Below, in pieces: positions 5,346 through 58,353 of a stretch of DNA of 64,000 nucleotides (its first letter is position 1; each line of letters begins with the position of its first letter). The position numbers and the translations under genes are program-made. The notes under the pieces are model-generated. The model worked only from the letters and a program-made list of their open reading frames with translations. It ran no database searches and was not told the origin of the DNA. This stretch comes from Gemmatimonadota bacterium (GTDB lineage: Bacteria > Gemmatimonadota > Gemmatimonadetes > Longimicrobiales > Gaopeijiaceae): positions 1 to 64,000 of the forward strand of contig JAJDXM010000024.1 in the NCBI GenBank assembly GCA_022823225.1, given 5' to 3'.

Positions 5346-5373
5346 GCCCGTAAACTAATCCAGCGGACCCGTC

Positions 5374-7751: not shown

Positions 7752-7752
7752 A

Positions 7753-8385: not shown

Positions 8386-8398
8386 GGCGCCCAACCCG

Positions 8399-12590: not shown

Positions 12591-12596
12591 GCCGCC

Positions 12597-14151: not shown

Positions 14152-14197
14152 CGCATCCTCCGGACCCGCTGCCGACTTTCCCAGACTCCCCAATTTA

Positions 14198-15296: not shown

Positions 15297-15317
15297 ATGT
15301 CATGTAAACATTACATT
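15290..15317 (+). promoter_or_regulatory. Inverted repeat and shared motif at the D-aminoacylase start
   Basis: Perfect six-base arms TTACAT and ATGTAA are separated by six bases (15290-15307) and overlap the start codon at 15297. The stretch 15297-15317 reads ATGTCATGT-N5-TTACATT, and exactly the same pattern recurs at 35538-35558 upstream of the molybdoenzyme operon. Such a dyad over a start site could be an operator. The regulator is unknown. Confidence 0.4.
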
Positions 15318-16904: not shown

Positions 16905-16907
16905 TCC

Positions 16908-18095: not shown

Positions 18096-18097
18096 CA

Positions 18098-18982
18098 GTG
18101 AACCGCGCCCGACCGTCTGTGGGAACATTCGCCGGCATTGGCGGCTCCGGATCCGACGCGCCGCCCCAGCTCTCGGCCGTTCGTCTTTCCGCCTCGCCGC
18201 CGGGCGGACACCAAGGCTTCCCCTTCAACATCCCGGCGCTGAGGGGACCTTGCGAGATCACGCTGCCGGGGCCCGTCACCTTCTTCGCAGGCGAGAACGG
18301 CTCCGGGAAGTCGACGCTGCTGGAAGCCCTGGCAATCGCGGCCGCACTCCCGGCGGTGGGCCGGACCGACGCCGCGCGGGACGACTCGCTGGCCAGCCAG
18401 CGCAAGCTCGCCGGGACGCTGAAGACCGTCTGGCGCCGGCGGACGCACCGGGGCTTCTTCCTCCGGGCCGAGGACTTCTTCGGCTTCGTGCAGCGTCTGC
18501 AGAAGGAGCGGGCGGAGCTGGAGGCCCGGATCGAGGAGGTCGAGCGGGAGTACGTGGGCCGTTCCGAACTGGCCAGGCAGCTGGCAAGGGGGCCCGCCGC
18601 CGCATCGCTGGGCGCGATGGAGGCCAGCTACGGCAAGAACCTCGACGCGAACTCCCACGGCGAGAGCTTCCTGCGCCTCTTCAGCGCGCGGTTCGTGCCG
18701 AACGGCCTGTACCTCCTCGACGAGCCGGAGGCGGCGCTGTCGCCGCAGAGCCAGCTCGGGCTGATCGCGATGATGAGCGAGATGGTGGCCGAGGGCGCGC
18801 AGTTCATCATCGCGACGCACTCGCCGCTGCTGATGGCCGTGCCGGGCGCGACGATCTACAGCTTCGACGACTCCCCGCTGCGCGAACTCGCGTACGATGA
18901 ACTCGACGGGGTGGTGCTCTTCCGCGATGTACTGGCGGCGCCGGAGCGTTACATGCGGCGGATCTGGGGGGTGGGGGGCTAG
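18098..18982 (+). CDS. AAA/ABC-type ATPase (COG3910-like predicted ATPase)
   Basis: This 294-residue soluble ATPase has Walker A GENGSGKST near residue 66, a helical insertion rich in Arg and Glu (KERAELEARIEEVEREY, possible coiled coil), Walker B LYLLDEPEAALS and the H-loop IIATHSPLL. This arrangement is that of stand-alone SMC/ABC-like ATPases whose targets are unknown. The GTG at 18098 is used because it lies just after the propeller stop and a GGAG sequence. It is convergent with padR and overlaps it by four bases. No membrane segment or nuclease domain is attached. Confidence 0.82.
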   Translation: MNRARPSVGTFAGIGGSGSDAPPQLSAVRLSASPPGGHQGFPFNIPALRGPCEITLPGPVTFFAGENGSGKSTLLEALAIAAALPAVGRTDAARDDSLASQRKLAGTLKTVWRRRTHRGFFLRAEDFFGFVQRLQKERAELEARIEEVEREYVGRSELARQLARGPAAASLGAMEASYGKNLDANSHGESFLRLFSARFVPNGLYLLDEPEAALSPQSQLGLIAMMSEMVAEGAQFIIATHSPLLMAVPGATIYSFDDSPLRELAYDELDGVVLFRDVLAAPERYMRRIWGVGG

Positions 18983-42848: not shown

Positions 42849-44210
42849 TTATTCCACGGCCTGCCAGGCGGGCCGGTTCCCGTTCCCTTCCTCGCTGCCC
42901 TCCTCCGACACCGGCCGGGCCGGCTGGGCTGGAACGATCAGCGCCCGCACCGGGCGGTTCGGGGAAACCGTCGTTCCCGTCCGCTCCTGGTACTCGCGCA
43001 TCCGCTGGTCCCTCAGCAGCTGGTCTACGGCGTCGATCAGCGCGCCGCCCCGCTTGTTCACGAACCGGATCACGCCCTTGTCGTCGATCACATAGATCGT
43101 GGGCCATCCGCGCACGCCCCACTCGGTCGCGATCGGGCCCTCGGCCGCAACCGTCTCGGCGTCCGGCTGGCTGTGTCCGTCCCACCAGGTCCTGTAGTCG
43201 AGGGCCTCGTCCTCCTTGGCCTGCTGAATCGTCTCCAGCCTGGCGTCGCTGTTGACGCCAAGCAGCGCCACCTCGTCCTCGTCGAAGATGTCCAGCATGG
43301 CACGCTGATAGGGGTATTCCCCGCGGCAGGGGCCGCACCACTGACCCGAGAAGATCAGGGCGACGACCTTGCCCCGGTAGTCTTCAAGCGAGAACTCGAT
43401 GCCATCGGTGTCGGTGCCCACGATGTTGGGCGCGACCATGCCGGGAGTGAGGTTCTCCACCAGGAAGCGCTGGCGCGCGAGAAAGCCGGCCGCGCCGGGG
43501 TGCTCTTCCGTGAGCCTGTCGAAGTATGCGCTGATTCGCGCGCCCTGGTACTCGCTGACCTGACCCCGCTGCAGACGCCCGCCGAAGCGCCAGAAGGTGC
43601 TCGCGGCCTCGTCCTCGAAGTCGGCCGCGATCTCGGGCAGGTTGATGATGGCGTCAAGGGTGCCGAGCAGGCGGTCCACCTGGCCGTCCGTGAACGGCTC
43701 GCCGCTATTCGGGTAGCTGTCGGCGTCGCCGAAGAGCTGCAGGTCGAATGTCAGCCCCGGGACACTCGGCCTGGATGCGGCGTACGAGGGGAGGAAGGTC
43801 CGCCTGTACTCGATCATTTCGCTGTGTTCGGGATGTCTGGCAGCCAGGTCGTCCAGGTACGACTGGATTCGTTCCAGCTGGGCCTGGGACACCTCCGGAA
43901 CCGCAAGGCGCCGGGTCAGGCTCCAGAGGTGGATGTCCGCCTCGCGGTCGAAGTCGGCCAGCGTCTCCTTCGCGGTTAGCGCCTCGTCGAGTGCGGACAT
44001 CAGGCCGTCGAAGCGCTCGTCGTCGAGCGGTCCGCCACCGGTGTCGTAGTCGCTGACCGGCGGGAACCACGCCTGTTGAATCGCCATCGGGAAATCGGCG
44101 CCGGGCACCTCTCCCTTCTCTCCCGGCCCGCCCAGGCCGCCGGACAGAACGAACCCGATTCCGATTCCAGCTACTCCTGTTACCGCCAGCGCCAAAGGCT
44201 GCCGCATCAT
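42849..44210 (-). CDS. TlpA-like thioredoxin-fold protein with duplicated helical module (paralog 1)
   Basis: The 453-residue protein is anchored or exported by an N-terminal helix (residues 6-30). Two copies of a helical module follow, at about 59-140 and 169-250; each starts G(E/G)P(L/F)-x-D, has an acidic (A)DF(D/E)xEA segment and ends in a HP(E/G) turn. The thioredoxin-like domain begins near MVAPNIVG and carries WCGPC at 291-295, then LLGVNSD and GWPTIYVIDDKGVIR. It should act as a thiol reductase in the envelope. It is the last gene of an operon headed by the split DsbD. The C-terminal tail of about 50 residues is unlike the other paralogs. The start overlaps the upstream stop by four bases; GGGAG precedes it. 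Confidence 0.85.
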   Translation of the reverse strand: MMRQPLALAVTGVAGIGIGFVLSGGLGGPGEKGEVPGADFPMAIQQAWFPPVSDYDTGGGPLDDERFDGLMSALDEALTAKETLADFDREADIHLWSLTRRLAVPEVSQAQLERIQSYLDDLAARHPEHSEMIEYRRTFLPSYAASRPSVPGLTFDLQLFGDADSYPNSGEPFTDGQVDRLLGTLDAIINLPEIAADFEDEAASTFWRFGGRLQRGQVSEYQGARISAYFDRLTEEHPGAAGFLARQRFLVENLTPGMVAPNIVGTDTDGIEFSLEDYRGKVVALIFSGQWCGPCRGEYPYQRAMLDIFDEDEVALLGVNSDARLETIQQAKEDEALDYRTWWDGHSQPDAETVAAEGPIATEWGVRGWPTIYVIDDKGVIRFVNKRGGALIDAVDQLLRDQRMREYQERTGTTVSPNRPVRALIVPAQPARPVSEEGSEEGNGNRPAWQAVE

Positions 44211-45502
44211 GATGCTCCCTTCTCGGCGTCCACCTCCGCATCCACCTCCGCGTCCTCCTCCGCTTCCTCTTCGGCCCGCTCCTGGTACTCGCGCATCGTC
44301 TTGTCCATCAGCAGCTTGTCGACGGCGGCGACGAGCGCTCCCCCGCGCTTGTCGGCATGCCGAATCACGCCCTCGTCGTCGATCACGTAGATCGTGGGCC
44401 AGCCGACGACGTTCCACTGCGTCGCGATCGGCCCCTTGGCGGCGACCAGGTCGGCCTCCGGCTGGCTGTGCCCGTCCCACCAGGTGCGGTAGTCGAGTCG
44501 CTCCCGCTCCTTCGCCTGGACAATCGTGTCCAGCACGGCGTCGCTGTTCACGCCGAGCAGCACGACGTCCCTGTCCTTGAACGCCTCCAGCATGCCGCGC
44601 TGGTACGGATACTCCCCGCGGCACGGCCCGCACCACTGCCCGGAGAAGATCAGCGCGACGATGTTGCCCCGGTAGTCCTCGAGCGTGAACTCGACGCCCT
44701 CGGTGTCCTTGCCCACGATGTTGGGCGCCACCTTGCCGGGCATGAGGTTCTCGACTACGAAGCGCTGCTGCCCGATCGCCTCGGCACCCTCGGGGTAGGT
44801 CACCTCGAGTTCGTCCAGGAAGGCCACGATGCGTTCGGTCTGGTCATCGTTCAGGACGCTTCGCTGCAAGCGGTTGCCCATCTGCCACAGCGGAATCCGC
44901 AGCTCCGTATCGAAATCGCCGGTGGCCTCGGGGAGACTCGCGACCACCTCGAGCTCCGCGAGCATTCTGTCCACCTGCCAGTCCTCGAAGGGTTCGCCCT
45001 CCTCCGGATAGCTCCCCTCCGCCTCCTCGAACAGCGTGACGAAGCCGGCGAATCCCGGCATCGACGGCATGTGCGACGCGTAGCTGTCGACCATCCCCTT
45101 GCGCTGGCCGATCACCTTGCTGTCCGGGTGCTCTTCGGCCAGGGCGTCCAGGTACGCGTGGACTCGCTCCTTCTGCTCGTCGCCGACCACCGGGACCGAG
45201 AGGCGCCGCATGAAGTTCCACAGGTGGAGATCCGCCTCGCGTTCGAAGTCCGCCAGCGTCTCCTCCGCCGTCATGGCCACTTCGAGCGCGGTCATCAACT
45301 CCTCGAAGCTCTCGTCGGAGAGCGGTTCGCCCTCGTTGTCGTACTGGTCCGCGGGCGGGAACCACAGCTTGGCCGCTGCGGCGGGGACGTCCAGTTCCCA
45401 ATCGCCGCCCGCGGTGCCGGGGGCCCCGCTGCTGCCGGCCACGAGCGCGCCCAGGCCGAAGGAAACGGCGATGGCGCAGATGATTGCCAGGGGTTTACGC
45501 AT
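44207..45502 (-). CDS. TlpA-like thioredoxin-fold protein with duplicated helical module (paralog 2)
   Basis: The 431-residue paralog begins with a signal-anchor helix and the family linker VPAAAAKLWFPPADQYDNEG. Module A (GEPLSDESFEELMTALEVAM) and module B (GEPFEDWQVDRMLAELEVVA) are both complete, and the redox domain has FSGQWCGPCRGEYPYQR and GWPTIYVIDDEGVIRHADKRGG. The C-terminus is a short Glu/Asp/Ala tail. It lies between paralogs 3 and 1, with a 4-bp overlap downstream and a 21-bp gap upstream. The close similarity to paralog 3 points to a tandem duplication. Confidence 0.86.
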   Translation of the reverse strand: MRKPLAIICAIAVSFGLGALVAGSSGAPGTAGGDWELDVPAAAAKLWFPPADQYDNEGEPLSDESFEELMTALEVAMTAEETLADFEREADLHLWNFMRRLSVPVVGDEQKERVHAYLDALAEEHPDSKVIGQRKGMVDSYASHMPSMPGFAGFVTLFEEAEGSYPEEGEPFEDWQVDRMLAELEVVASLPEATGDFDTELRIPLWQMGNRLQRSVLNDDQTERIVAFLDELEVTYPEGAEAIGQQRFVVENLMPGKVAPNIVGKDTEGVEFTLEDYRGNIVALIFSGQWCGPCRGEYPYQRGMLEAFKDRDVVLLGVNSDAVLDTIVQAKERERLDYRTWWDGHSQPEADLVAAKGPIATQWNVVGWPTIYVIDDEGVIRHADKRGGALVAAVDKLLMDKTMREYQERAEEEAEEDAEVDAEVDAEKGAS

Positions 45503-45523
45503 GTCGAGCTTCTTTCTCCGGAT

Positions 45524-46822
45524 TCAGTTCGTCTTCGTTGCGGGTCGGGGCCGGCTGGCGGGTATGACGATGCCCTGCGGAGCGCTGCCCACGCTCCTCA
45601 TGCGCATCTCGGTGTGGAGCTCGTCCAGTGCGGCGATGAATTCGCCCCCGCGCTTGCCGACGTAGCGGATGACGCCCTCTTCGTCGAGGATGTAGATCTG
45701 CGGCCATCCGGTCACGTTCCAGGCGGTCGCGATCGGCCCGTCGGTGGCGGCCGCTTCGGCGTCCGGCTGGCTGTGGCCGTCCCACCAGGTGCGGTAGGGC
45801 AGGTTCTCGTCGATCTTGGCCTGCCGGGCCGTCTCAAGCTCCGCGTCGCTGTTGACGCCGAGCAGCACGATCGGCCGGTCGCCGTAATTCTCCAGCACGA
45901 ACCGGTGGTACGGGTACTCGCCCCGGCAGGGACCGCACCACTGCCCGGTGAAGATCACCGCCACGATGTTGCCCCGGTACTCCTCCAGCGAGAACTCGAC
46001 GCCTTCGGTGTCCTTCCCGGTGATGTTGGGCGCGACGTTGCCCGGGATCAGGTTGCCGGCGACGAACTTGTACCGGTCGAGCATCTCGGCGTGGTCGGGG
46101 TGCGCGGCCTTCACCTCCTCGTAGAAGCCCGCGACCCGCTCAACCTGCCCGGGCGTCAGCCGACCCATCTGCAGCCGGTTGTTGAGCCGCCAGAAGTGCG
46201 TGCCCGCCTCGCTTTCGAAGTTGTCCAGCGCATCGGGGGTCCGGAGCACCGCGTCGACGCGCGCGATCATGTCGTCGACCTGTACGTCCTCGAAGAAGCC
46301 GCCTCCGGTGTCGTATTCGTCGGCGCCTCCGAAGATCAGCAGGGATCCCGAGAGCGACGGGAGGCCGCCGCCCGGCCAGGGACGCGAGTAGCTCTCGACC
46401 AGGCCGCCTCGCTGGTTGATCATGCGGCTGTGATCCGGATGCTCCTCGGCCAATGCCGCGAGGCGCGCCGTGATCTGCTCCTTCTGCTCGTCGCTGATGG
46501 CGGGCGGCCCCAGGCGGCGGATGAAATTCATGAGGTGGACCTCCGCCTCCCGCTCGAAGTCGGCCAGCGTCTCGTCGGCGGTCATCGCCTCTTCGAATGC
46601 GGTCATCAGCGCCTCGAACTTCTCGTCGCTGAGAGGCTCGCCGTCGGTCCTGTATTCGCTCGCGGGCGGGAACCACGCCTTCGTGGCCGCAACAGGCAGC
46701 GTCCACTCCGCGTCTTCGGTACGGACGTCGTCCGTTCCCGCCCATCCGAAGACGCCCGGGACCGTGAGCCCCCCTACGAACGCGACGACGATTGCGCCGG
46801 TAACTGCAGCTGACTTCCGCAT
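45524..46822 (-). CDS. TlpA-like thioredoxin-fold protein with duplicated helical module (paralog 3)
   Basis: The 432-residue protein is the first TlpA-like gene after dsbD (43 bp gap). It has an N-terminal membrane helix, then VAATKAWFPPASEYRTDGEP, module A (residues about 60-135) and module B starting GGGFFEDVQVDDMIARVDAVL. The thioredoxin domain has FTGQWCGPCRGEYPYHR and GWPQIYILDEEGVIRYVGKRGG. AGAGG upstream of the ATG supports the start. DsbD next door is the probable source of its electrons. The substrate is unknown; cytochrome c maturation or repair of oxidised envelope proteins are the usual jobs of TlpA-type proteins. Confidence 0.86.
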   Translation of the reverse strand: MRKSAAVTGAIVVAFVGGLTVPGVFGWAGTDDVRTEDAEWTLPVAATKAWFPPASEYRTDGEPLSDEKFEALMTAFEEAMTADETLADFEREAEVHLMNFIRRLGPPAISDEQKEQITARLAALAEEHPDHSRMINQRGGLVESYSRPWPGGGLPSLSGSLLIFGGADEYDTGGGFFEDVQVDDMIARVDAVLRTPDALDNFESEAGTHFWRLNNRLQMGRLTPGQVERVAGFYEEVKAAHPDHAEMLDRYKFVAGNLIPGNVAPNITGKDTEGVEFSLEEYRGNIVAVIFTGQWCGPCRGEYPYHRFVLENYGDRPIVLLGVNSDAELETARQAKIDENLPYRTWWDGHSQPDAEAAATDGPIATAWNVTGWPQIYILDEEGVIRYVGKRGGEFIAALDELHTEMRMRSVGSAPQGIVIPASRPRPATKTN

Positions 46823-46865
46823 CGAAACCTCTTTCTTTCAGGCCGGCGGCATCACGCAGGCGTCC

Positions 46866-48257
46866 CTACATCGCCGCCTTCAGGAACTCCAGAAACTCCT
46901 CCCGGTCGCGCGTCAGGCCCAGGAAGGTCGAAATCGTATTGCCATCACCGTCAAGGATTGCGTACAGCGGCAGCGCGATGGTGCCGAACGTCTCCCGCTG
47001 GTAGTCCATCTGGTCTTCGTAGACCTCGCCGTCGCCGTCGGTGAAGAGGCGGGCCAGAACGAAGCGCTCGAGCTGCTCGGCCACTTCGGGGATCGTGAAC
47101 ATGTTCGACTCCATCCAGCGGCAGTTGGTGCAGGTGTAGCCGGTGAAGTCGATGAAGACGCGGTTGCCGCCCTCACGAGCGGCTGCGAGCGCGCCCTCGA
47201 GGTCGTTGGTGTACCATCGGAAGCCATCGTGTTCCTCGCCGCGCTCCGCCATTGCCAGGGCCCCGGCCGGTGTGTCCTCGAAGCGGGGCGGCAAGAACGG
47301 TTCGACCTCGCCGAGCGGCCGGCCGTCCAGCCCGAGGCCGAGCCAGACTCCGAAAACGGTGAAGCCGGTGGCCAGGGAGGCTGCGACGGGGTGGGGGAGC
47401 CAGCTGAGAATGGACGCACGGGCGGGGGTCGCTCCGGCGGGCGCGGGGGTGGCAGCGGCGGAATGGCCGGCCCGGGCGGACCCGAGGGGCAGGTGTCTGC
47501 CGAGCAGGTAGATCGCGATGACGCCGCAGATGATCGCCCAGGAGGCGAGGACCACCTGCCGCGAGAAGATGCCCCAGCCCATCACCAGGTCCGCGTTCGA
47601 GACGAACTTGAGCGCCGCGCCCACTTCGATCATTCCGATGACGATCTTCACCGACTTCAGCCACCCGCCGGAGCGCGGCAGCCTCGACAGCACGGTGGGC
47701 GCGAGGGCCAGGAAGAAGAACGGCACGGCGAAGGTTGTCGAGAAGAGCAGCAGTCCCACGACGGGCTGCTGCCACTGACCCTGGGACGCCAGGACCAGGA
47801 GCGTGCCGACGAAGGGGGCCGTGCAGGTGAAGGTGGTGACCGCGAAGGTCGCGCCCATGAGCACCGAACCCACCGCACCGGTCGAAGCGCGGTCACGGGT
47901 GGCGCCGTCCAGGCGGGTGAGGATCCCCGACGGGATCCGGATCTCGTAGAGGCCGAAGAAGTTCAGCGCGAAGGCGACGAACATCGCCGCGATCGCCAGG
48001 TTCACCCAGGGACTGGCCGCGAAACGGCTCATCCCGGCGGCGCCGACCAGCACCGAGGTGGCGAGCCCCACCAGTGTGAAGGTGCCGATGATCCCGCCGC
48101 CGAAGAGCAGCGCGTTCTTGATTGCGGCTTTGCGGCCCCCGCCCCCGTGCTTCGCGAAGTAGGATGCCGTGATGGGGATCATCGGGAAGACGCATGGCGT
48201 GATCAGCGCGAAGGCTCCGGCCGAGATGGCGAGCCAGAAGAAGGCGCCGTCGATCAT
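46866..48257 (-). CDS. dsbD: DsbD-type thiol:disulfide interchange protein (membrane plus C-terminal thioredoxin domain)
   Basis: This 463-residue protein carries electrons across the inner membrane. The eight-helix domain has the paired cysteines Cys22 (LITPCVFPMIP) and Cys145 (TFTCTAPF), which accept electrons from cytoplasmic thioredoxin. After a Pro/Ala-rich loop, a C-terminal thioredoxin domain has the CTNC site (Cys376, Cys379) in FTGYTCTNCRWMESN. The N-terminal periplasmic domain of classical DsbD is absent here and is encoded by the preceding gene, so the protein is split. Three TlpA-like genes follow in the same operon and are its likely partners. Confidence 0.9.
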   Translation of the reverse strand: MIDGAFFWLAISAGAFALITPCVFPMIPITASYFAKHGGGGRKAAIKNALLFGGGIIGTFTLVGLATSVLVGAAGMSRFAASPWVNLAIAAMFVAFALNFFGLYEIRIPSGILTRLDGATRDRASTGAVGSVLMGATFAVTTFTCTAPFVGTLLVLASQGQWQQPVVGLLLFSTTFAVPFFFLALAPTVLSRLPRSGGWLKSVKIVIGMIEVGAALKFVSNADLVMGWGIFSRQVVLASWAIICGVIAIYLLGRHLPLGSARAGHSAAATPAPAGATPARASILSWLPHPVAASLATGFTVFGVWLGLGLDGRPLGEVEPFLPPRFEDTPAGALAMAERGEEHDGFRWYTNDLEGALAAAREGGNRVFIDFTGYTCTNCRWMESNMFTIPEVAEQLERFVLARLFTDGDGEVYEDQMDYQRETFGTIALPLYAILDGDGNTISTFLGLTRDREEFLEFLKAAM

Positions 48258-48261
48258 TGGG

Positions 48262-48879
48262 TCAGCCCTCGGTCGACGGCGTGATCGTTACCGGCACCGA
48301 GAGCTTTTCGGTCTGTGCCGGCAGGCAGAGCCGGTTCGTACACGCCTGGTAGCGGGCCCGAACCTGGATCTCCTTGACGTCGGGCCCGGCGTCGGCCGCC
48401 ACCTGCGCCGGGAGTTCGTAGGCGACGCCGCCCTCGTGCATCTCGACTTCCATCGAGAAGTTCTGGTCGAACTTGACCGTCGGCACCGTGCCCCTGACGT
48501 CTCCGGCCTGCGTGAACGGTTGCTCGGCCGCGAGCGAGATCCGGCTCGGTACCGGACCGCCCTCGCCCTGCGTGATCGAGTAGATGTACCACCCGGGATC
48601 GATTGCCGCGCTGACAGCCACGGTGAACTCCGCTCCCGCCGCGAGGCTCTCCCGGTCGATTTCAGCCGTCCAGTGGACCGGATTCTGGGACATGGCGCCT
48701 GGGCCGGGTGCCGCACGGCCTGCCGAAGCGGACGCCCCCGAGGCGGACGAAGCCGCGGCGGGTGTCTCCGACGCAGGCGCCTCGGAGTCGGGCGACCCGC
48801 AGGCGAGCGTCCCCGCGAGGAGCGCCATCGACCCGGCGACGCCCAGGATCTGCATCATTTCCGATATTCTTTTCGACAT
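48262..48879 (-). CDS. Lipoprotein form of the DsbD N-terminal domain
   Basis: The 205-residue product has lipobox LAGTLAC, an Ala/Ser-rich linker to about residue 65, and an Ig-like domain matching the DsbD alpha domain: DPGWYIYSIT, VAYELPAQVA and VRARYQACTNRLCLPAQTEKL, where the two cysteines (C-x5-C) form the redox pair. It should hand electrons from DsbD to periplasmic clients. A clear AGGAGA lies before the ATG. The leader (about 48880-48945) is AT-rich compared with its surroundings and contains a TATACT on the minus strand, a possible -10. The gene is 4 bp upstream of dsbD. Confidence 0.84.
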   Translation of the reverse strand: MSKRISEMMQILGVAGSMALLAGTLACGSPDSEAPASETPAAASSASGASASAGRAAPGPGAMSQNPVHWTAEIDRESLAAGAEFTVAVSAAIDPGWYIYSITQGEGGPVPSRISLAAEQPFTQAGDVRGTVPTVKFDQNFSMEVEMHEGGVAYELPAQVAADAGPDVKEIQVRARYQACTNRLCLPAQTEKLSVPVTITPSTEG

Positions 48880-49155
48880 ATTCTTCTCCTGATTATGCAG
48901 TATCAGATATTCTTGGATTGTGAAAATATAGCATAGTATATACCCGGCGCCGCCAACACTCGATCCCGAACTTCCTCAGCGCGTCCCGGATCGGTTTTGC
49001 GGCGCAGGTCGGACATCGTCGTGCTCCTCGTTCAGTCCCCGACACTTTGCCAACAGACTAGCCGTTCAGGGGGCCGGTGGGCAAGTTCGAGCGGAGATCA
49101 GCCGACTGGCCGGGGCCGGGGTGAAGCGTCCGGCGGCTCGAGGCCGGAGCCGGGA

Positions 49156-51687
49156 TCAGGCCGGGCCCGGATCCAGGATCGCGTCCACTCGGGCCAGCGC
49201 GTCGTAGAGATGGGCCTCGGTGACCCGGTGGGCCATCCCGCGGTTCAGCCGCCTCGCGATGTCGTCCCGGAGGGTGCGGAGCTGTTCACGCACCAGTGGG
49301 CGAATGTCGGACGTGCTGACGTTGGGGCCGGCTGCGAAGAACGGCGTGGGGGCCGCCGGCGCGTCGGTCATGAAGGTGGCCATGCGCTCGATATACGCCC
49401 GCTGCAGCGCCCGCCGGTACGGGCCGACTTCGGTGACGCGTTCCAGGTCCTCCCACACCGCGGCGCGTACATCGTCCAGGAACTCGACGAGCGGGTAGGC
49501 GTCGTCGGGCTCGGTGACTTCCAGCTCCGCCAGGGTGGCCATGCGCGAGGTGGAAAGCAGCTGATTGAGGACGGAGCTCTGGAGCCGGGTGATGTTGGCC
49601 ACGCTGGCCGCGCTCGGGCCGATCAGCTCCAGAATCTCGGGAACGTTCAGCCACGTGGGCGCGGTGAAGGCCTCGCGCGCGAGCCACGCCATGGCGCGCT
49701 TCTGCTCGGCGCGCGGCACCCCGTCGAAGACCGCGCCGTCCTGGTCGGCGGTCTTGAGGTCTGCGTGCACGCCCCCGACGATCGTCACCACGTGGCGCAC
49801 GTACCGCGACCACTGGCTCACCGCCTCCCCGTAGATCTCGGCCAGGTCGGAGTAGTCCTCGCCGGGCCGGGTCGTCCACGCCACCAGGTTGGGCACGATG
49901 CGGCGCAGGTTCGCCATCCCGTACTGGTTGGCGCGCACCATGTCGTCGCCCATGTCCTCGGTCTGCGCGCGCGGGTCGCTCACGCCGAGCCCGCCCTGCG
50001 GCAGGTACTTGTACATGCGGTCGTGGGCCTTCTCCACGATCCACCGGTTGAGGGTGGGAATCTCGTCCTCGGGGGTCTCGGCGTCCGGCAGCACGCGGTA
50101 TCCCCAGTTGACCGAGTAGTGGTCGTAGACGCCGATGCGCCGCAGGAAGTCCTTCGGCTCGAGCCCGTCCTCGGGCTGCGCGATGTAGTTCTGGCGCGCG
50201 TAGTCCATGATCGTGGGCGCGACGCCCATCTTGCTGGCGAAGGTCTGCGAGCGCAGCGAATCCACCGGGTAGGACGAGCTGGCCACCATGTTGTGCGACA
50301 GCCCGATCGCGTGCCCGATCTCGTGGGTGATGACCTGCTCCATCGCCTCCTCCATCAGCTCGTCGGTCAGCGGGAGCTGGCGCGCGTCCGGGTTGGCGGC
50401 GCCGGTCTGCACCATCATCCAGTTCCGGTACGAACGCATGTGGTTGTGGTACCAGACGATGTCCGACTCGATGATCTCGCCGGTGCGCGGGTCCGAGGTG
50501 CTCGGGCCCACCGCGTTGCGCGTCTCGCTTGCCGACCAGCGCGCCACCGAGAAGCGCACGTCCTCCGGGTCCCAGTCGGGGTCCTCCTCCTTCGACGGGG
50601 CCTCGAGCGCGACGATCGCGTTGCTGAACCCCGCCGTCTCGAAGGCGGGCTGCCAGTTCTCGATTCCGCGCCGCACGGCGTCGACGTAGCGTTCAGGCGT
50701 CGCGGGGTCGACGTAGTAGGTGATCGGCGTGACCGGGTCGACCACCTCGCCCCGGGCGTATGCCTCCGGGTCGGAGGGTTCCAGCCGCCAGCGGCGGATG
50801 AAGGTCTCCGTGGCGGCCTTCTGTTCGTTCAGGCCGTAGTTGATGCGGCTGACCGTGAAGTAGCCGACGCGCGGGTCGGCGTAGCGGGGACGCATCGGTT
50901 CGGCCGGGAGCAGCACGAGCGACTGGTTCATCTCCAGCGTCACCGTGTTGGCCGCCTCGTCGGTGGGGGGCGAAGCCGCGTCGTAGGTCAGCGTGTGGCG
51001 AACGTTCACATTCAGCGGATAGCTCCGCACGCGGCCGATGAAGCTGCGGTCCGCGTCGAGCCGGCGGACGCCGTAGTTGCGGCGCTGGGCGGGACTCAGG
51101 CCGGAGAGATGCGGGGTGTCCCCGCCGAAGAAGTCGGTCACGTCGATGACCGAGCTCGCCGAGTCGGGACCGCGCGCCTCGATCTCCCAGGATTCCAGGA
51201 TGGGCGGGAAGTAGTTGGCCTCGACGGACGCCGCGATCGCCAGGGTGTCGTCCGCGACGGCCACGCCCGAGTGCTTCCGGAGCATGATCCGGTCGCCGCG
51301 CCGCTCGAACCGCACCATCTGGCGGTTGGTGGCCGCTCCCGCCGACTGGAATCCGCCGAGCCCGTCCATCTTGCCGGCGATCCGGCTGATCAGCAGCATG
51401 TCGCGACCGAGAAGCGAGTCGGGGATCTCGAAGAGGTAGTCTTCGTCCTTCCTGTGCACCGTGAAGAGGCCGTCGTCGGTTTCGGCGCCCTCGATGACGT
51501 CGGCGTAGGTGGCCTCTTCGCCGGAGTCTCCTCCCATGGCTGCACGGCCTCCGGGTCCGGGCGCGTCCGCGGCTTCCGGGGCCTGGCCCGCGGGAGCGAG
51601 AGGAACGGCGCTGGTCGCCGCGCGGCCGCCGCAGGCCGCGACGAGGGCGATCGAGAGCAGGGTGATGGAAGCGCGAAGTTCGTTCAT
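49156..51687 (-). CDS. Lipoprotein zinc metalloprotease (DUF4953/DUF5117-like, HExxHxxGxxH)
   Basis: The 843-residue protein has lipobox LVAAC, a Gly/Ala-rich linker, and a long extracytoplasmic region. Residues 72-300 form the DUF5117-like part (DGLFTVHRKDEDYLFEIPD, LISRIAGKMDGLGGFQSAG). The zincin domain has YYVDPATPERYVDAVRRGIENW and the full zinc motif HEIGHAIGLSHN, with His455, Glu456, His459 and His465. The C-terminal DUF4953 part continues with VYDHYSVNWGYRV. It is a probable cell-surface metallopeptidase; substrates are unknown. It separates the two groups of TlpA-like genes. The ATG at 51687 is preceded by GAGGA; an upstream open frame has no signal peptide. Confidence 0.88.
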   Translation of the reverse strand: MNELRASITLLSIALVAACGGRAATSAVPLAPAGQAPEAADAPGPGGRAAMGGDSGEEATYADVIEGAETDDGLFTVHRKDEDYLFEIPDSLLGRDMLLISRIAGKMDGLGGFQSAGAATNRQMVRFERRGDRIMLRKHSGVAVADDTLAIAASVEANYFPPILESWEIEARGPDSASSVIDVTDFFGGDTPHLSGLSPAQRRNYGVRRLDADRSFIGRVRSYPLNVNVRHTLTYDAASPPTDEAANTVTLEMNQSLVLLPAEPMRPRYADPRVGYFTVSRINYGLNEQKAATETFIRRWRLEPSDPEAYARGEVVDPVTPITYYVDPATPERYVDAVRRGIENWQPAFETAGFSNAIVALEAPSKEEDPDWDPEDVRFSVARWSASETRNAVGPSTSDPRTGEIIESDIVWYHNHMRSYRNWMMVQTGAANPDARQLPLTDELMEEAMEQVITHEIGHAIGLSHNMVASSSYPVDSLRSQTFASKMGVAPTIMDYARQNYIAQPEDGLEPKDFLRRIGVYDHYSVNWGYRVLPDAETPEDEIPTLNRWIVEKAHDRMYKYLPQGGLGVSDPRAQTEDMGDDMVRANQYGMANLRRIVPNLVAWTTRPGEDYSDLAEIYGEAVSQWSRYVRHVVTIVGGVHADLKTADQDGAVFDGVPRAEQKRAMAWLAREAFTAPTWLNVPEILELIGPSAASVANITRLQSSVLNQLLSTSRMATLAELEVTEPDDAYPLVEFLDDVRAAVWEDLERVTEVGPYRRALQRAYIERMATFMTDAPAAPTPFFAAGPNVSTSDIRPLVREQLRTLRDDIARRLNRGMAHRVTEAHLYDALARVDAILDPGPA

Positions 51688-51824
51688 GGTTTTCGTCCTC
51701 TGGTGTTCCCGGTCTGGTGCGGGTCGTGATGTCGTCCCCAGTTTGGTCCAGGATGGAGCCGGAGCGCACACGACCAAATCTGCCCGGCTGAGATGTGACC
51801 CGTCAAAAAAAATGGAGCCAGGAG

Positions 51825-52358
51825 ATGTCCAGACTGCCCGCACTCGGTCTTGCCGCCGCGCTGATCTCGATCGGATGGGTCGCCGGCGCGACCAGGTCCC
51901 AGGATCCGCCCGCCACCTACATCTCGGCCGCCGACATCCTGGCCACGATCGGGAACGCGCCCGCAGGCCGGGTCAGCGACCAGCAGATCCGGCACATCGA
52001 CGCGGGTGGGCACAACGTGGGGGTCGGGGTCGTCCAGCGGCCTCCCAGCACGACGCTCGGCGCGATCCAGCACCACAACCAGACCGAGGTGTACTACGTG
52101 GTGTCGGGGCGGGGGACCCTGGTGACGGGCGGCGAACTCACCAACGCCCGGGCCCTTCCCGCGGACGGCGCGACGGTGCGCACCCTTACCGGCCCGAGCT
52201 CGGTGGGCGGCATTGAGGGCGGCGAGAGCCGCGAGATCGGCCCCGGCGACATGCTGATTATCCCGGCGGGATCGCCGCACGGGTTCAGCGAGGTCATCGA
52301 GACGATCACGTACATCGTCGTGCGGGTGGATCCGGATCAGCTGGTGGAGCTGAAGTAG
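51825..52358 (+). CDS. Secreted cupin-domain protein
   Basis: The 177-residue product has a signal peptide (MSRLPALGLAAALISIGWVAGA) and one conserved cupin barrel. The metal-site motif is HHNQTEVYYVVSGRGTLVTGG, with two histidines and a glutamate, and the second motif is GDMLIIPAGSPHGFSEV with the last histidine. It may be a small-molecule-binding protein or an enzyme such as an isomerase; nothing decides this. The ATG at 51825 has GGAG eight bases upstream and gives the better signal peptide than the GTG at 51795. Confidence 0.8.
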   Translation: MSRLPALGLAAALISIGWVAGATRSQDPPATYISAADILATIGNAPAGRVSDQQIRHIDAGGHNVGVGVVQRPPSTTLGAIQHHNQTEVYYVVSGRGTLVTGGELTNARALPADGATVRTLTGPSSVGGIEGGESREIGPGDMLIIPAGSPHGFSEVIETITYIVVRVDPDQLVELK

Positions 52359-52577
52359 GGGGCCGGTGCGCGTCCGCCGACCGGGGCATTCTGGCTTCAC
52401 CGGAGGATCGAGGGGTCGCCAAGACACGCTTAGCTTGACAGACGCGAAGACTGACAGAATTTGTGGAACACCGTCCCGACCTGTACATTCCAATGTCCGG
52501 CTTCATCCGGTTGGCCGGGTCGCTAGAGAGAAGGCTCCACGAAAGGGCTTGGCAACTGAACCGGGTTGGAGCGGAGA

Positions 52578-52712
52578 ATGAAGAAGCAGAAAAGCGTGAC
52601 CAGGAGCATACTCGCCTCCTGCATCACCTGCATGACATGGGCGGGGACGAATTGCAGGTACGAGGAGAATTATCTGCCTGGAAAAGTCAAACTGGAGCCT
52701 AATACGACATAG
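52578..52712 (+). CDS. Small 44-residue peptide with signal-like N-terminus
   Basis: This short ORF begins with a strongly basic start (MKKQKSVTR), then SILASCITCMTWAGTNC, and ends in a polar tail with YEENYLPGKVK. GGAG lies eight bases before the ATG. It carries three cysteines in the hydrophobic part and one just after. The arrangement, a tiny exported peptide gene just upstream of a propeller protein gene, recalls the NVEALA-type peptides that precede BF3164-type propellers in Bacteroidota. This is an analogy only. Codon statistics or proteomics would be needed, since ORFs of this length occur by chance. Confidence 0.4.
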   Translation: MKKQKSVTRSILASCITCMTWAGTNCRYEENYLPGKVKLEPNTT

Positions 52713-52861
52713 TCGGATCAGTCATCATGGTCGAGGTGCTTTCCCATTCGATGCCTCGGTATTCCGCAATGTCCCAGCCCACTGCATGTGTGAGCTTAGG
52801 CCCTCACGCATTCGCGCGTGCGATCTCGCCCGTGGGATTTGCGTACCGCCCAGTGCGGCAA

Positions 52862-53899
52862 ATGGCACTGGTGTCCGCGTGGTTGATCGCTGCAGGTGTT
52901 TCACTGTTGGCTGTATCGGACGCAGCGACAGCTCAAGTCACGCCACGGGTCGATACTCTCAAGGCGGAACTGCTGTCCCAGCCTCCGGCGATTGGGCAAC
53001 CCGGCTTCATACAGCCATGGGGAAAACACCTCCTGGTGTCCGACTGGCTGGGAGATCCCAATCTACATGTGCTCGACCGTGCAACGGGGGAATTGATCGT
53101 CTCATTCGGTCGCATCGGCCGGGGCCCGGGCGAGTTTCCCAACGTGTTGGCAGGCGTTCAGCGGCCATCGCACGACACAACCGCGATATGGGTGTACGAC
53201 GCGAGGAAGATGACGCGAATTGAAGGACCTGGGGGCATGGGGCCGGACGTCACAGCCATCGACTTGACGGCGATTCCTCTCGTTCTAAGGGCAGCATGGA
53301 TGGATTCCACCACGATTCTGGGCGTCACCTGGGAGCCGCCAGAACGCCGTTTCGTGTTTTTCGACGGGGCCGGAAGCGTGATCAGGGCGACGTCCGGAGT
53401 CCTGCTCGGCCACGATGGGATTCCTCTGTCACAACGTTTGGAGGCCAGTGCACAGTTTGCCTTTTGCATGCGTCCTGACGGGAGCCGGTTTGCGCTACTC
53501 TACAAGAGAGCCGCAAGAGTCCAGATCTACGACCGCTCAGCGAGGCATCTGACTGATGCGGATGTGCCCTATTCAATCGACGCTACCTTCAGGCAGGCCG
53601 ACGGTGAGATCAGGTTCGTTCAGGAATGGATCACTTACCAGGCGTGCTGGGCGGGCGGCGATGTCCTGTATGCACTCTACTCGGGTGACGACTATGGGAC
53701 CGCGTCAGGCGAAACACTTGGGGGTGAGGAAATCCACGTCTTTGATTGGGACAGTGGCCGGCTGATGAGGAGGCTCTATCTTGATACGCGCGTCTTTGGC
53801 GTTGCCGTTGACGAGGATTCGGGTTGGCTGTACGGTGGATCGCTGCAGGATGCGGGCATCTATCGGTTTCGGTTTTCCAGCGGAGGAAGCGAATGGTAA
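52862..53899 (+). CDS. Secreted six-bladed beta-propeller protein (BF3164/TolB-like)
   Basis: The ATG at 52862 gives a good signal peptide (MALVSAWLIAAGVSLLAVS to TAQ); the frame is open further up to 52727 but without a plausible signal. The 345-residue mature part has the propeller blades typical of the family, with IVSFGRIGRGPGEFPNVLAG and repeated hydrophobic-glycine strands. It lacks a lipobox. The region is clearly less GC-rich than its neighbours (about 50 percent in the 60 bases at 53881), which suggests acquisition by transfer. It overlaps the start of the following broken DsbA-family gene. Confidence 0.75.
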   Translation: MALVSAWLIAAGVSLLAVSDAATAQVTPRVDTLKAELLSQPPAIGQPGFIQPWGKHLLVSDWLGDPNLHVLDRATGELIVSFGRIGRGPGEFPNVLAGVQRPSHDTTAIWVYDARKMTRIEGPGGMGPDVTAIDLTAIPLVLRAAWMDSTTILGVTWEPPERRFVFFDGAGSVIRATSGVLLGHDGIPLSQRLEASAQFAFCMRPDGSRFALLYKRAARVQIYDRSARHLTDADVPYSIDATFRQADGEIRFVQEWITYQACWAGGDVLYALYSGDDYGTASGETLGGEEIHVFDWDSGRLMRRLYLDTRVFGVAVDEDSGWLYGGSLQDAGIYRFRFSSGGSEW

Positions 53900-54481
53900 C
53901 GCGGTTGATCAACGTGGTCTCGAATCTGGTAGTTACATTGGCAGCGATAGTTATTGTTTGGGGCTTGGTCGCCGATGATAGGGACGACACGCGTTCAGGT
54001 CCCGCGATTGCCCAAGTGTCGCCTCAGTTCTTGAAAGCGGCGGGCGTCGGTCCACGGATCGGACGGGACCCCCGAACACCTGGCGGTGGTTGTCAAGTCG
54101 TTTGTTCCCCTGGACACCTCTGAGGGGACCAGGTTATCCTTGGCGGCTGAATGTGCGCATGAACAAGGTGTTTTCGGGGCGTTTCACTCTGCGGCCATGC
54201 AGGTGGTGGAGGGGCAGCAAGGGGGTCCGGTTTGGGCGGTCGCGGCAGACGCGATTGCCGTGCCAGACCGAGCGGATTTCGATCTCTGTGTTGCGACGGC
54301 CAAGTACGCGGACCGAATACACGATGACTACGCTGTAGGTGTGGAACTGGGTGTTCGGGGCGTGCCTACCTCCATCGTCAACGGGTTGGTTTACGAAGGT
54401 TCATTGGAGCTACCCGCGCTGGACTCTGCGGTTGCGCGAGCGTTGCCGGGGCGGCTGACGATTGGCGGGCTTCCGCGGTAG
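53893..54481 (+). pseudogene. Broken DsbA-family thioredoxin-like gene lacking its CxxC site
   Basis: The 5' part has an ATG with GGAGGA before it and encodes an N-terminal membrane helix (LVVTLAAIVIVWGLVA), then IAQVSPQFLKAAGVGPRIG in one frame. The 3' part continues in the next frame as TPEHLAVVVKSFVPLD, AAECAHEQGVFGAFHSA, then VGVELGVRGVPTSIVNGLVYEGS, the cis-proline region of DsbA-like proteins. The join lies between about 54035 and 54065. The expected CPxC segment between the two parts is absent, so a deletion has removed the active site as well as shifting the frame. A sequencing error alone would not restore a DsbA enzyme, because the active site is missing. Confidence 0.66.
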
Positions 54482-54691
54482 GTTATCGCCGGCATTTGCG
54501 TCGGGACCCTTCAGAGCCGGAGGCGCGTTACCTTTTCCGTTTGAGTGTCGCCCGCTTCCCGGCTCGCTGCTCACGTAAGGTGCGGATCGCAACACGGATC
54601 GATGTCTCAGATCGAAGAGCACCTTGAGTGGCCAGATTACGCCGAGGCCACGCCCGCGATCCGCGAGCCTTCCGATCCCGTCCTGGAGCCG

Positions 54692-55978
54692 CTAACCGCT
54701 GCCGCCTTCCCCTTCGCCCGTCGGGGCCGAGACCGCGGGCGTCATCGGAACCGGCACGGCGGGCCCCTCGTACCCCCGCATGCGTAGATCCATGAGCATC
54801 CTGCCGACCGTCGCGATCAGGTTGCCGCCGCGGGTGTTCCTCACGTTGCGGATCACGCCCTCTTCGTCGATCACGTAGATCGCGGGCCAGCCGGTCACGC
54901 CCCACGCGGAGGCGATCGGTCCGCTGGTCGACACATCCGCGTGGCCGTCCCACCAGGTGCGGTAGGCGGGCGCCTTCCCGCTGGCCTTGGCTTCGCGGAT
55001 CGTCTCCACGTCGCCGTCGCTGTTGACCCCCAGCAGCACGAGCGGCTCGTCCTTGTACTGCTCCAGAATGAAGTGGTGGTAGGGGTACTCGCCGATGCAG
55101 GGACCGCACCATTCGCCGGAGAAGACCAGCACGACGATGTTGCCGCGGTAGTCTTCGAGCGCGAACTCGACGCCCTCGGTGTCCTTCCCGACGATGTTCG
55201 GGGCCACGCGCCCCGGGGTGAAGCTCTCCACCCGCAGCCGTGCGTCGTCGATGGCGCCGGCGGCGTCGGGGTGGCGCGTCTTCAGCTCCTCGAAGAACTC
55301 GACGATGCGCGTGTGCTGCTCGTCGCTGACCAGGCCGGCCTGCAGCCGATTGGCGAAGAGGGTGAAGTGGGTGCGGGACTCGCGCGCGAAGGCGTCCGCC
55401 GCCTCCGGGATCCCGACCGCCGCATCGAGGGCCCTGAGCAGTCCGTCGATCTGGGCGTCGGAGAACGGCTGGCCTCCGGGGTTGAACGAGTCCCGGTAGG
55501 TGTAGTTCGCGATCACGGACGACATCGGAGCAGGAGACTTTGACGGCACCGCGTACCAGTCGACGTGCCGCTGGTTGGTCGAAATGGCTTCGGCGTGTTC
55601 CGGGTGGCGCCACCCGAGTTCGGTGAGGTAGGCGGACACCCGGGCCTTCTGCTCATCGGTGACCGTGGGAACGGCGAGCCGCCGGAAGAAGCTCCACAGG
55701 TGGACGGTGGCTTCCCGCTCCACGTCGGCCAGCGTTTCCTCGGCGGTCATGGCCTCTTCGAGCGCGGCCATCAGCGCGTCGAAGCGCTCGTCGTCGAGGG
55801 GCTCGCCGCCGGTGTCGTAGTCGCTCAGCGGCGGAAACCAGACCTGCGTGGCCGCGGCGGGGAGGTCGATCGGCGGGTAGGGGGCCGAATCGCCTGCCCC
55901 CGGTCCGCTGACCGAAATGACGAGCCCAAGGACGAAGGAAGCGATGATTGCGCCGGCAATCGCGATTGGCCTGTTCAT
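54692..55978 (-). CDS. TlpA-like thioredoxin-fold protein with duplicated helical module (paralog 4)
   Basis: The 428-residue paralog has the N-terminal helix, the linker AAATQVWFPPLSDYDTGGEP, module A (ending VSAYLTELGWRHPEHAEAI), module B (GQPFSDAQIDGLLRALDAAV) and a thioredoxin domain with FSGEWCGPCIGEYPYHH. Its proline side of the fold is GWPAIYVIDEEGVIRNVRNTRGG. It belongs to the second cluster of three, downstream of paralogs 5 and 6 on the same strand, with a 94-bp gap to paralog 5. It lacks the Gln-Pro motif of WDGHSQP seen in the other long copies (WDGHADV), a small change in the loop after the active site. Confidence 0.84.
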   Translation of the reverse strand: MNRPIAIAGAIIASFVLGLVISVSGPGAGDSAPYPPIDLPAAATQVWFPPLSDYDTGGEPLDDERFDALMAALEEAMTAEETLADVEREATVHLWSFFRRLAVPTVTDEQKARVSAYLTELGWRHPEHAEAISTNQRHVDWYAVPSKSPAPMSSVIANYTYRDSFNPGGQPFSDAQIDGLLRALDAAVGIPEAADAFARESRTHFTLFANRLQAGLVSDEQHTRIVEFFEELKTRHPDAAGAIDDARLRVESFTPGRVAPNIVGKDTEGVEFALEDYRGNIVVLVFSGEWCGPCIGEYPYHHFILEQYKDEPLVLLGVNSDGDVETIREAKASGKAPAYRTWWDGHADVSTSGPIASAWGVTGWPAIYVIDEEGVIRNVRNTRGGNLIATVGRMLMDLRMRGYEGPAVPVPMTPAVSAPTGEGEGGSG

Positions 55979-56072
55979 GGTTCAAGACTCCTGGTGCCGT
56001 GAAACGGCGCTGTGCCCCGGTCCGGTCCCGGTCCGCGGCAGCCGTTTGCCCTGGCAGCCGCGCCGGAACAAT

Positions 56073-57356
56073 CTAGTCGTTCGATTCGCTCTCCGCGTCC
56101 GTTCCCGTCTCGATGGCCGCGGCCCGTTCCGCCTCGAACTCGGCCATGCGAATCTCCACCACCATGTCGTCGAGTGTCGCGATGAGATCGCCGCCCCGCT
56201 TGTTGATGTGGAGGATCGCGCCGTCCTGGTCGAGCACGTAAATCGTGGGCCAGCCGAACACCTCCCAGCCCTTGGCGATCGGCCCATTCGTCGCCACGAT
56301 CTCGGCGTCCGGCTGGCTGTGGCCGTCCCACCAGGTGCGGTAGTCCGGCGCCTCGCCCCGAGCCTTCGACGCGAGGATCACCTCGGGGTCGGCATCGCTG
56401 TTGACGCCCAGGAAGACCACCGGGTCGTCCTTGTACTGCTCCATGGCGAAGCGGTGGTAGGGGTATTCGCCGCGGCAGGGCCCGCACCATTCGCCCGAGA
56501 AGACGAGCACCACGATCTTGCCCCGGTACTCCTCCAGCGAGAACTCGACACCGTCCAGATCCTTGCCGACGGTGCGCTGGGCCACGCGGCCCGGGAGCAG
56601 GTATTCGATGTAGTGGCGCCGCTCGTCGACCACGTCCGCCAGTTCGGGGTGCTTCTCGGCGAATGCGTCGAAGTGGGCCAGCACGCGCTCGGTCTGTTCG
56701 TCGCTGATCCGTCCAAATTGCAGGCGCTGGGTGAAGCCCCGGAGCACGACTCCCGCCTCCCTCTCGAAGTCGTTGACCGTCTCCGGAAGCTCCAGCATGG
56801 CGTCGAACCCGGCCAGCATTCGATCGATCCACGCGTCTTCAAATACCCCGTCCGGGGGATACAGGCCGTCGGCGTAGACGTGCGACCGCACGGACGCCGT
56901 GAAGGAAGGCACGACGGGATAGGCCCGGCCGTAAACGCCGAGCATCGAGACCTGCCGGTTGATCAGGCGCTCGTGCTCCGGATACTGCTCGACCAGACCG
57001 GTAAGGTAGGCGGAGGCCCTTTCGGTCTGTTCCGCCGACAACTCGGGGATCGCGATGCGCCGGAAGAAGCCCTGCACGTTGGGCTCGATGCTGCGTTCGA
57101 TGTCGGCGAGCGTCTCCTCGGCGTTCATGGCCTCGTCGAGCGTCGCCATGAGCGCGTCGAAGCGTTCGTCGTCCAGCGGCTCCCCGTCGTTCTCGAACTC
57201 CTGGACGGGCGGATACCACATCTTCAGCGCCGTCGCGGGGACGTCGATCGACGAGTCCGGCCCGGCCGATTCGGGACCGTCCGCGGCTCGGGACCCAACG
57301 AATCCGATGCCGACGCCAACGATGAGTGCCGCCGCCACGGCCATGGGCTTGTTCAT
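56073..57356 (-). CDS. TlpA-like thioredoxin-fold protein with duplicated helical module (paralog 5)
   Basis: The 427-residue paralog has the N-terminal helix and the linker VPATALKMWYPPVQEFENDGEP, module A (about residues 55-140) and module B starting VFEDAWIDRMLAGFDAMLELP. The redox domain begins GRVAQRTVGKDLDG (where the others have APNIVG) and contains FSGEWCGPCRGEYPYHR and GWPTIYVLDQDGAILHINKRGG. It probably shares an operon with paralogs 6 and 4, though gaps of 94 and 181 bp leave room for separate promoters. Expansion by duplication is evident from the common layout. Confidence 0.85.
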   Translation of the reverse strand: MNKPMAVAAALIVGVGIGFVGSRAADGPESAGPDSSIDVPATALKMWYPPVQEFENDGEPLDDERFDALMATLDEAMNAEETLADIERSIEPNVQGFFRRIAIPELSAEQTERASAYLTGLVEQYPEHERLINRQVSMLGVYGRAYPVVPSFTASVRSHVYADGLYPPDGVFEDAWIDRMLAGFDAMLELPETVNDFEREAGVVLRGFTQRLQFGRISDEQTERVLAHFDAFAEKHPELADVVDERRHYIEYLLPGRVAQRTVGKDLDGVEFSLEEYRGKIVVLVFSGEWCGPCRGEYPYHRFAMEQYKDDPVVFLGVNSDADPEVILASKARGEAPDYRTWWDGHSQPDAEIVATNGPIAKGWEVFGWPTIYVLDQDGAILHINKRGGDLIATLDDMVVEIRMAEFEAERAAAIETGTDAESESND

Positions 57357-57537
57357 TCGGTATGCCTCCAGGAAAGGCCGGCGGTCTTCCGCACCCGCTC
57401 CGGGTGCCGATGTGCCGTTGTCGCTAAGCCGCCGGTCGATTCAACATGGCCTGGCGACCTGGGATTCGCCAGCCGGTGGCGGGTTTGCGGGCCGGAAGCG
57501 CGACGCTTCCTGGAGTGCGGGGAACCTGTTCGCCGGA

Positions 57538-58353
57538 CTACTGGTCCACCGCCCGCATTTCCTCCAGCAGCCTGTCCACCGCTCCGAACATCCCTTCCTG
57601 GCGCTTGTTCACGAAGCGGATTACGCCGTCCGCGTCCAGAATGAAGGTGCTTGGCCACCCCCAGACGTTCCACGCCTCCGAGATCGGACCGTTTGTAGAG
57701 CCGTCCCACCAGGTTCGGTAGTGCAACTCCTCGCGGACCTTGGCCTCCTGGATCGTTTCGAGCTTCCTGTCGCTGTTCACGCCGAGCAGCACGACCGGTT
57801 CGTCCGCATACTTCTCCATCAGCTCGCGCTGGTAGGGGTATTCCTCGCGGCAGGGACCGCACCACTCGCCCGAGAAGACCAGCACCACGATATTGCCGCG
57901 GTAGTCCTCCAGCGCGAATTCGACCCCGTCCGTATCCGCGCCGACGGTAGGCTGCGCGACCATTCCGGGGGTCAGAACCGAAAACAGACGGCGCTGCTCT
58001 TCGATCATCTCCGCGGACCTGGGGTGCTCCGACTTCATTTCATCGAAGTAGGCCAAAACCCGTTCGGCCTGTTGGGGCGATACGCGTCCGCGCCGAAACG
58101 ATGTCCGGAAGCCGCGGATGTAGCTCGCCGCCATTTCCCGCAACATGGGTTCATCGTCGGTGGGGCTCAGCAGCGAATCCAGCGTCGAGATCAGTCGGTC
58201 GACGTGGGCGTCCTCCAGGGGGGCACCGTCGAGGTCGCGGGGCACGATGTCGGAAAACGCGTCGTAGTTGATGTTGAAGGGCATGTCGCCGCACGCGGGT
58301 GCCAGTGCAAGCGACAGTACGAGGATCCATTTGGAGACTCTGCTTCGGTTCAT
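57538..58353 (-). CDS. Short TlpA-like lipoprotein with a single helical module (paralog 6)
   Basis: The 271-residue protein is the shortest of the family. It has a lipoprotein signal (lipobox LAPAC) and only one helical module, which matches module B of the long paralogs: GAPLEDAHVDRLISTLDSLL through FRRGRVSPQQAERVLAYFDEMKSEHP. The redox domain follows with FSGEWCGPCREEYPYQR and GWPSTFILDADGVIRFVNKR. It could be the ancestral single-module form, or a copy that lost module A; sequence alone does not say. It is first in the second cluster on the minus strand. Confidence 0.85.
   Translation of the reverse strand: MNRSRVSKWILVLSLALAPACGDMPFNINYDAFSDIVPRDLDGAPLEDAHVDRLISTLDSLLSPTDDEPMLREMAASYIRGFRTSFRRGRVSPQQAERVLAYFDEMKSEHPRSAEMIEEQRRLFSVLTPGMVAQPTVGADTDGVEFALEDYRGNIVVLVFSGEWCGPCREEYPYQRELMEKYADEPVVLLGVNSDRKLETIQEAKVREELHYRTWWDGSTNGPISEAWNVWGWPSTFILDADGVIRFVNKRQEGMFGAVDRLLEEMRAVDQ

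Follow-up and report, generated by a model that had tools for sequence, protein, structure and literature searches.

What a bacterium does with several near-relatives of one thioredoxin-fold protein is the question raised by a stretch of 64,000 nucleotides from a Gemmatimonadota bacterium (contig JAJDXM010000024.1, positions 1 to 64,000), here called the window, whose coordinates are used throughout. The window contains six intact minus-strand genes, A to F, arranged in two clusters and each encoding a ResA/TlpA-type thioredoxin domain. Ahead of this domain, the products of A to E carry two copies of a four-helix module of about 90 residues, while F carries one. With a confidence slightly better than even, we interpret the family as part of a dedicated envelope reducing pathway, in which one DsbD would feed a set of thiol reductases and the cysteine-free modules would select clients or position the catalytic domain. 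An earlier note on this DNA had described six TlpA-like paralogs, five of them with an internally duplicated helical module of about 80 residues and the shortest with the second module only. This description was confirmed, with the exception of the module length, which is nearer 90 residues.

A duplicated helical module joined to a thioredoxin domain

For each of the two modules, a profile was built from 54 two-module proteins, and these two profiles matched each other at 99.8% in hhalign over 90 columns. Control comparisons gave 0.3 to 0.4% for the module against the thioredoxin domain, 0.2% for a reversed profile and 3.7% for the best of 60 column shuffles. When module 1 was aligned with module 2 within each of the proteins A to E, z scores of 13.5 to 23.7 were obtained, and 0 of 300 shuffles scored as high. 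The internal duplication is real. Single-module copies, including F, were closer to module 2 (99.9% in hhalign) than to module 1 (99.3%).

AlphaFold models of C and F were computed from seven-row alignments and had a mean pLDDT of 76.5 and 80.2, respectively. In the model of C, the helices of module 1 (residues 66-80, 83-87, 89-102, 111-127 and 129-139) and of module 2 (residues 179-193, 196-200, 202-217, 224-240 and 242-257) followed an identical order, and the module of F was predicted to form four helices (residues 48-62, 69-88, 93-109 and 111-127). All 54 two-module proteins were devoid of cysteine in the modules and had exactly two cysteines, those of the active site, in the thioredoxin domain.

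AhpC-TSA/Redoxin domains were detected above the Pfam cut-offs at the C terminus of all six proteins, and the WCGPC and W-cisPro (WP) motifs were present in all six and in the alignment tallies. The closest structures were ResA/TlpA-like, with Z of about 19 for C and 18.9 for F against ResA (rmsd 1.6-2.0, about 20% identity). The family thus shares the thioredoxin fold, WCxPC motif and cis-proline of ResA, TlpA and CcmG (DsbE), and has a glutamate three residues past the second cysteine, at what we take to be the position of ResA E80. However, it differs from these proteins in its one or two N-terminal four-helix modules, its many paralogs and its NCBIfam scores, which for A, C, D and F (the four of the six submitted) stayed under the cut-offs, with at best 58.9 of 170 bits for ResA, 34.4 of 123.15 for DsbE and 33 of 230 for rhizobial TlpA. 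Collectively, these comparisons suggest that A to F are TlpA/ResA-type thioredoxin-fold oxidoreductases in the broad sense.

Searches of the module against Pfam and PDB sequences returned no significant match (best E in the PDB sequences, 0.031), and in Pfam the matches of 27 N-terminal regions were scattered and all below threshold. DUF4404 (PF14357) was matched weakly and over nearly its full length by 6 of the 27 regions (best E 0.0066), but at 17.5 of 27 bits it lay under the gathering score, and hhalign with one DUF4404 protein gave 0.7%, within the range of 120 random controls. DUF6176 reached E 0.00022 in one member, but with 38 of 109 positions covered. A relationship to Metal_resist/CpxP-like proteins, prompted by an S/T-x-E-Q motif, was unsupported (2 of 27 matches, best E 0.028). 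Fold searches with whole proteins gave no match confined to the module, but were uninformative on this point because the thioredoxin domain fills the match lists. The outcome that the earlier note had named as fatal to its interpretation, a known and widespread TlpA N-terminal domain, was looked for and not found as far as Pfam, PDB sequences and genome searches reach. The module is apparently an undescribed domain, and no title or abstract describing this architecture was found in literature whose coverage mostly excluded subscription papers and preprints.

Distribution and association with DsbD

A module profile of 45 rows was searched against 395 genomes of the phylum, with only 13 candidates per genome scored. 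Matches were obtained in 13 genomes, 11 of them in the genus of the window. The two matches elsewhere were weak (G201, E 2.9e-6; G024, E 7.9e-4); judged by eye, they fall in a DUF4350-like tail and in a TPR/SPOR-like protein, and were set aside as probably unrelated. Outside the phylum, a small sample of 35 genomes picked through thioredoxin matches (35 of 79 non-genus loci) was searched, and the module was found in none of them. When 84,980 species were scanned with thioredoxin-motif patterns, the best among the matches listed (L065, 75%) extended over the full length, whereas the next (32%) was confined to the thioredoxin part. By these searches, which outside the phylum started from thioredoxin matches, the module appears credibly in one genus only.

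Within that genus, the family was present in 11 of 23 genomes with 1 to 13 copies each. Eight copies were counted in the window's genome, including two further two-module copies side by side on another contig, as compared with 13 in G007, 12 in G012, 10 in G008, nine in G013 and G022, seven in G005, G019 and G021, and one in G003 and G018; these counts are listed matches below E 1e-50 and are rough, the assemblies being fragmented. The module stood without a thioredoxin domain in 4 of 76 family rows from the fetched stretches, which hold part of the known copies. The four were L064, truncated by a contig end, L062_4787 and two pieces of an apparently decayed family copy inside the G019 cluster (L055:6520-7446, minus strand).

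All three domains of DsbD (alpha, membrane and gamma) were detected above cut-off in adjacent genes next to C (Table 1). The NCBIfam cut-off for single-polypeptide DsbD was not reached by this protein, which is split over two genes (108.1 of 330 bits for the membrane protein). A CX4C pair and signal in the DsbD_N protein, and the TPC, TCT and CTNC cysteines of the membrane/thioredoxin protein, the last in the gamma domain, were read off the sequence. The DsbD_N gene, the membrane/thioredoxin gene, C, B and A follow one another with gaps of 4, 43 and 21 bases and then a 4-base overlap between the start of A and the end of B, the true start of A being at about 44210 and not 44636. This tight, operon-like gene order is as expected of one operon. 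In the second cluster, F, E and D are separated by 181 and 94 bases.

The DsbD protein of the window and DsbD_N were each matched in 11 of the 23 genus genomes, the same 11 that carry the family, and DsbD_N was found in 0 of the 12 non-carriers. At least one further DsbD_TM/CcdA-type protein was present in 23 of 23, a housekeeping protein common to the genus, which makes the DsbD that accompanies the family an additional one. In both carriers with a single full copy, G018 and G003, DsbD lay within about 4 kb of it.

Carriers displayed a recurring gene order of sulP, DsbD operon, metalloprotease, cupin, family genes and GGT. In the non-carriers G002, G006, G010 and G014, sulP, cupin, metalloprotease and GGT occupied their usual places (76-83% protein identity), but the 19-kb stretches inspected in these 4 of the 12 non-carriers contained neither DsbD nor any family gene. 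A nitrile hydratase beta subunit lay between metalloprotease and GGT in G010 and G014, both of the genomes whose reading frames were listed (L257:6343-6993, minus strand, and L258:10916-11566, plus strand); carriers have the second reductase cluster there.

Two further genes of the window adjoin the reductases. The first is a decayed DsbA-like gene, whose C-terminal part covers positions 79-190 of the 191 in the DSBA profile and matches the Rcas_1661 (seleno)lipoprotein family; its N-terminal part is in another frame, and the CxxC stretch is seemingly missing. The second encodes a TolB-like propeller and adjoins the second cluster. Inspection by eye also picked out propeller-like proteins around the pair of copies on the other contig (L015, about 3362-18631); one of them (L015:12258-13526) was searched against Pfam, with no match.

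Table 1. Reductase, DsbD and adjoining genes, in window coordinates
Feature	Position	Strand	Description
A	42849-44210	-	two-module thioredoxin protein; internal repeat z 17.2
B	44207-45502	-	two-module thioredoxin protein; internal repeat z 23.7
C	45524-46822	-	N-terminal hydrophobic segment, module 1 (residues ~58-145), module 2 (~174-258), thioredoxin domain (259-408)
DsbD membrane (beta) domain and C-terminal thioredoxin (gamma)	46866-48257	-	PF02683 E 6.2e-29; PF13899 (Thioredoxin_7) E 4.8e-11
DsbD_N (alpha), separate gene	48262-48879	-	first operon gene; lipobox-like signal; PF11412 E 1.5e-13
Propeller gene	52727-53899	+	TolB-like, six-bladed
Decayed DsbA-like gene	53898-54481	+	
D	54692-55978	-	two-module thioredoxin protein; internal repeat z 22.3
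E	56073-57356	-	two-module thioredoxin protein; internal repeat z 17.0
F	57538-58353	-	lipoprotein-like signal, one module (residues ~43-127), thioredoxin domain

Evolution of the paralogs

A tree of the thioredoxin domain was built from 73 rows, with the four rows lacking this domain omitted and fusion proteins entered as two rows each. Two-module proteins grouped together, the second halves of two fusion proteins being the only interruption, and a well-supported branch separated them from the remaining one-module proteins. Each of the proteins A to F grouped with counterparts from other species, and because of this they are old paralogs, long kept across species. The local expansion proposed in the earlier note was therefore only half right, as the paralogs did not arise in a recent tandem burst.

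Variants of the architecture were also observed. The family tree includes two module-less thioredoxin domains. Single open frames were found to join a two-module thioredoxin protein to a one-module one (L048:7137-9824, plus strand; L052:7553-10516, minus strand) and a module-less thioredoxin domain to a one-module protein (L054:3065-5341, plus strand). Between two module-bearing copies, a TlpA-like protein of 640 residues with a long, different N-terminal region was encoded at L063:4324-6243 (minus strand).

A simple lipobox pattern, used in place of a trained predictor, was matched by 13 of the 17 proteins that have one module or none and an N terminus of their own. F and L050_17158 displayed a lipobox-like motif by eye, and the other two had a hydrophobic segment instead. 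Among two-module proteins, the pattern was matched in 2 of 54, with the cysteine inside the hydrophobic segment. Since a hydrophobic segment is kept at the N terminus of two-module members, while the majority of one-module members resemble lipoproteins, the set may span the inner and outer membranes.

Divergence was compared between domains for groups A to E in four genomes. Mean identity within orthologue groups was 0.81 for module 1, 0.75 for module 2 and 0.91 for the thioredoxin domain, and fell between groups to 0.52, 0.39 and 0.65, respectively. Omega, estimated from five orthologue pairs of G008 and G012, ranged over 0.05-0.34 for module 1, 0.17-0.41 for module 2 and 0.07-0.22 for the thioredoxin domain. 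The modules evolve faster than the thioredoxin domain, and with all omega values below 1 there was no indication of positive selection acting across entire domains.

A putative envelope reducing pathway and its alternatives

It is established DsbD biology that a DsbD with an alpha domain reduces thioredoxin-like envelope clients, and PMC3914529 and PMC8900818 describe DsbD-type reductases acting in this way. In the pathway that we propose, the split DsbD, composed of the lipoprotein-like DsbD_N and the membrane/thioredoxin protein, would carry cytoplasmic electrons across the inner membrane and reduce the WCGPC disulfide of the TlpA/ResA-type family members, each of which would pass electrons on to one or more client proteins of its own. 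The modules would provide selectivity or positioning, either by holding the client or by setting the reach of the thioredoxin domain; they are candidates for this role because they are cysteine-free, variable among paralogs and conserved within them. Specialised envelope reductases, as suggested in the earlier note, are well supported by the retention of WCGPC and W-cisPro, the DsbD operon and the co-occurrence of the family with DsbD_N in 11 of 23 genomes. The further suggestion that the modules bind different partners is compatible with their faster evolution.

A pathway of DsbD and TlpA/Etrx-type proteins is of a known kind, and the architecture described here is a variant of it with an apparently undescribed domain. 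In the pneumococcal CcdA1/2-Etrx1/2-MsrAB2 system, as given in PMC3914529, a membrane DsbD/CcdA-type protein is likewise encoded with TlpA-like thioredoxins, which pass electrons to a client and differ between paralogs in client use. The system in the window differs from it in having a three-domain DsbD, up to 13 copies and extra modules, and in showing no recognisable client gene.

Several points weigh against this interpretation. The reducing direction is drawn from knowledge of the protein families. The neighbourhood showed no recognisable client gene. The faster evolution of the modules also fits plain relaxed constraint, with all omega values below 1, and in B the constraint on module 1 equals that on the thioredoxin domain. 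Finally, the co-occurrence of DsbD and the family is suggestive, coming largely from linked genes, which can be lost together. On an RpoB tree of 21 of the 23 genomes (G009 and G014 had no RpoB match), the carrier label required only four changes, at least three of them forced by well-supported branches. These give three independent pairs, and the changes are too few for a phylogenetically corrected test; the Fisher value of 7e-7 (11/11 vs 0/12) ignores relatedness and was not relied on.

Rather unlikely, though the strongest of the alternatives, is that the modules oligomerise the proteins and that the family acts as DsbD-reduced disulfide isomerases, like DsbC and trimeric ScsC. Such a role would be vacant, as VKOR was found in 22 of 23 genus genomes and the DsbC_N dimerisation domain in 0 of 23 (an E. 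coli control matched). PMC8900818 further describes N-terminal helices that trimerise ScsC, coupled to isomerase activity, and a DsbD-like partner, ScsB; both ScsB-ScsC and DsbD-DsbC resemble the window system in pairing a DsbD-like reductase with a thioredoxin protein bearing a helical or dimerising region at its N terminus. However, the region in ScsC is of about 50 residues and trimerises, whereas the window family has 90-residue four-helix modules, in tandem, on a catalytic domain of the ResA/TlpA and not the DsbA type. Moreover, all 12 non-carriers have VKOR without the family, and an isomerase of this sort is thus not required for VKOR-type oxidation.

Less likely again is that the modules act as spacers, holding the thioredoxin domain away from the membrane, with copy number reflecting dosage or oxidative-stress tolerance and the copies largely redundant. 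In favour of this reading, the modules vary more than the thioredoxin domain, and the two module-less domains and the in-frame fusions indicate that the module is dispensable in some copies. However, the separate clades of A to F, kept across species, argue against simple redundancy, and the modules are still under purifying selection. A role as CcmG/ResA-type helpers of cytochrome c maturation, to which the nearest structures and NCBIfam models (ResA, DsbE/CcmG and TlpA) would point, is improbable, as the NCBIfam cut-offs are far off (e.g., 51.9 of 170 bits for ResA), 12 of 23 genomes lack the family while keeping other CcdA-type proteins, and up to 13 copies per genome exceeds the known need of that pathway for such proteins.

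Returning to the envelope reducing pathway, a bolder version of it can be offered only tentatively, and we would not expect it to hold in full. In this version, the domain was born in the genus, always joined to a thioredoxin, duplicated once and then diversified, such that each paralog would be a private electron arm from one dedicated DsbD to a different client in the envelope and the tandem modules would form a recognition code.

The DsbD hubs of well-studied bacteria serve a handful of clients. The family described here points to an unexplained demand for redox activity in the envelope of sponge-associated Gemmatimonadota, where the link to sponges is the naming style of one carrier (G021), as for the Ircinia metagenome-assembled genomes in PMC9531527. 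With as many as 13 TlpA-type proteins in a genome, an additional domain that varies among paralogs and close relatives without the set, these genomes offer a natural comparison for how thioredoxins gain client specificity.

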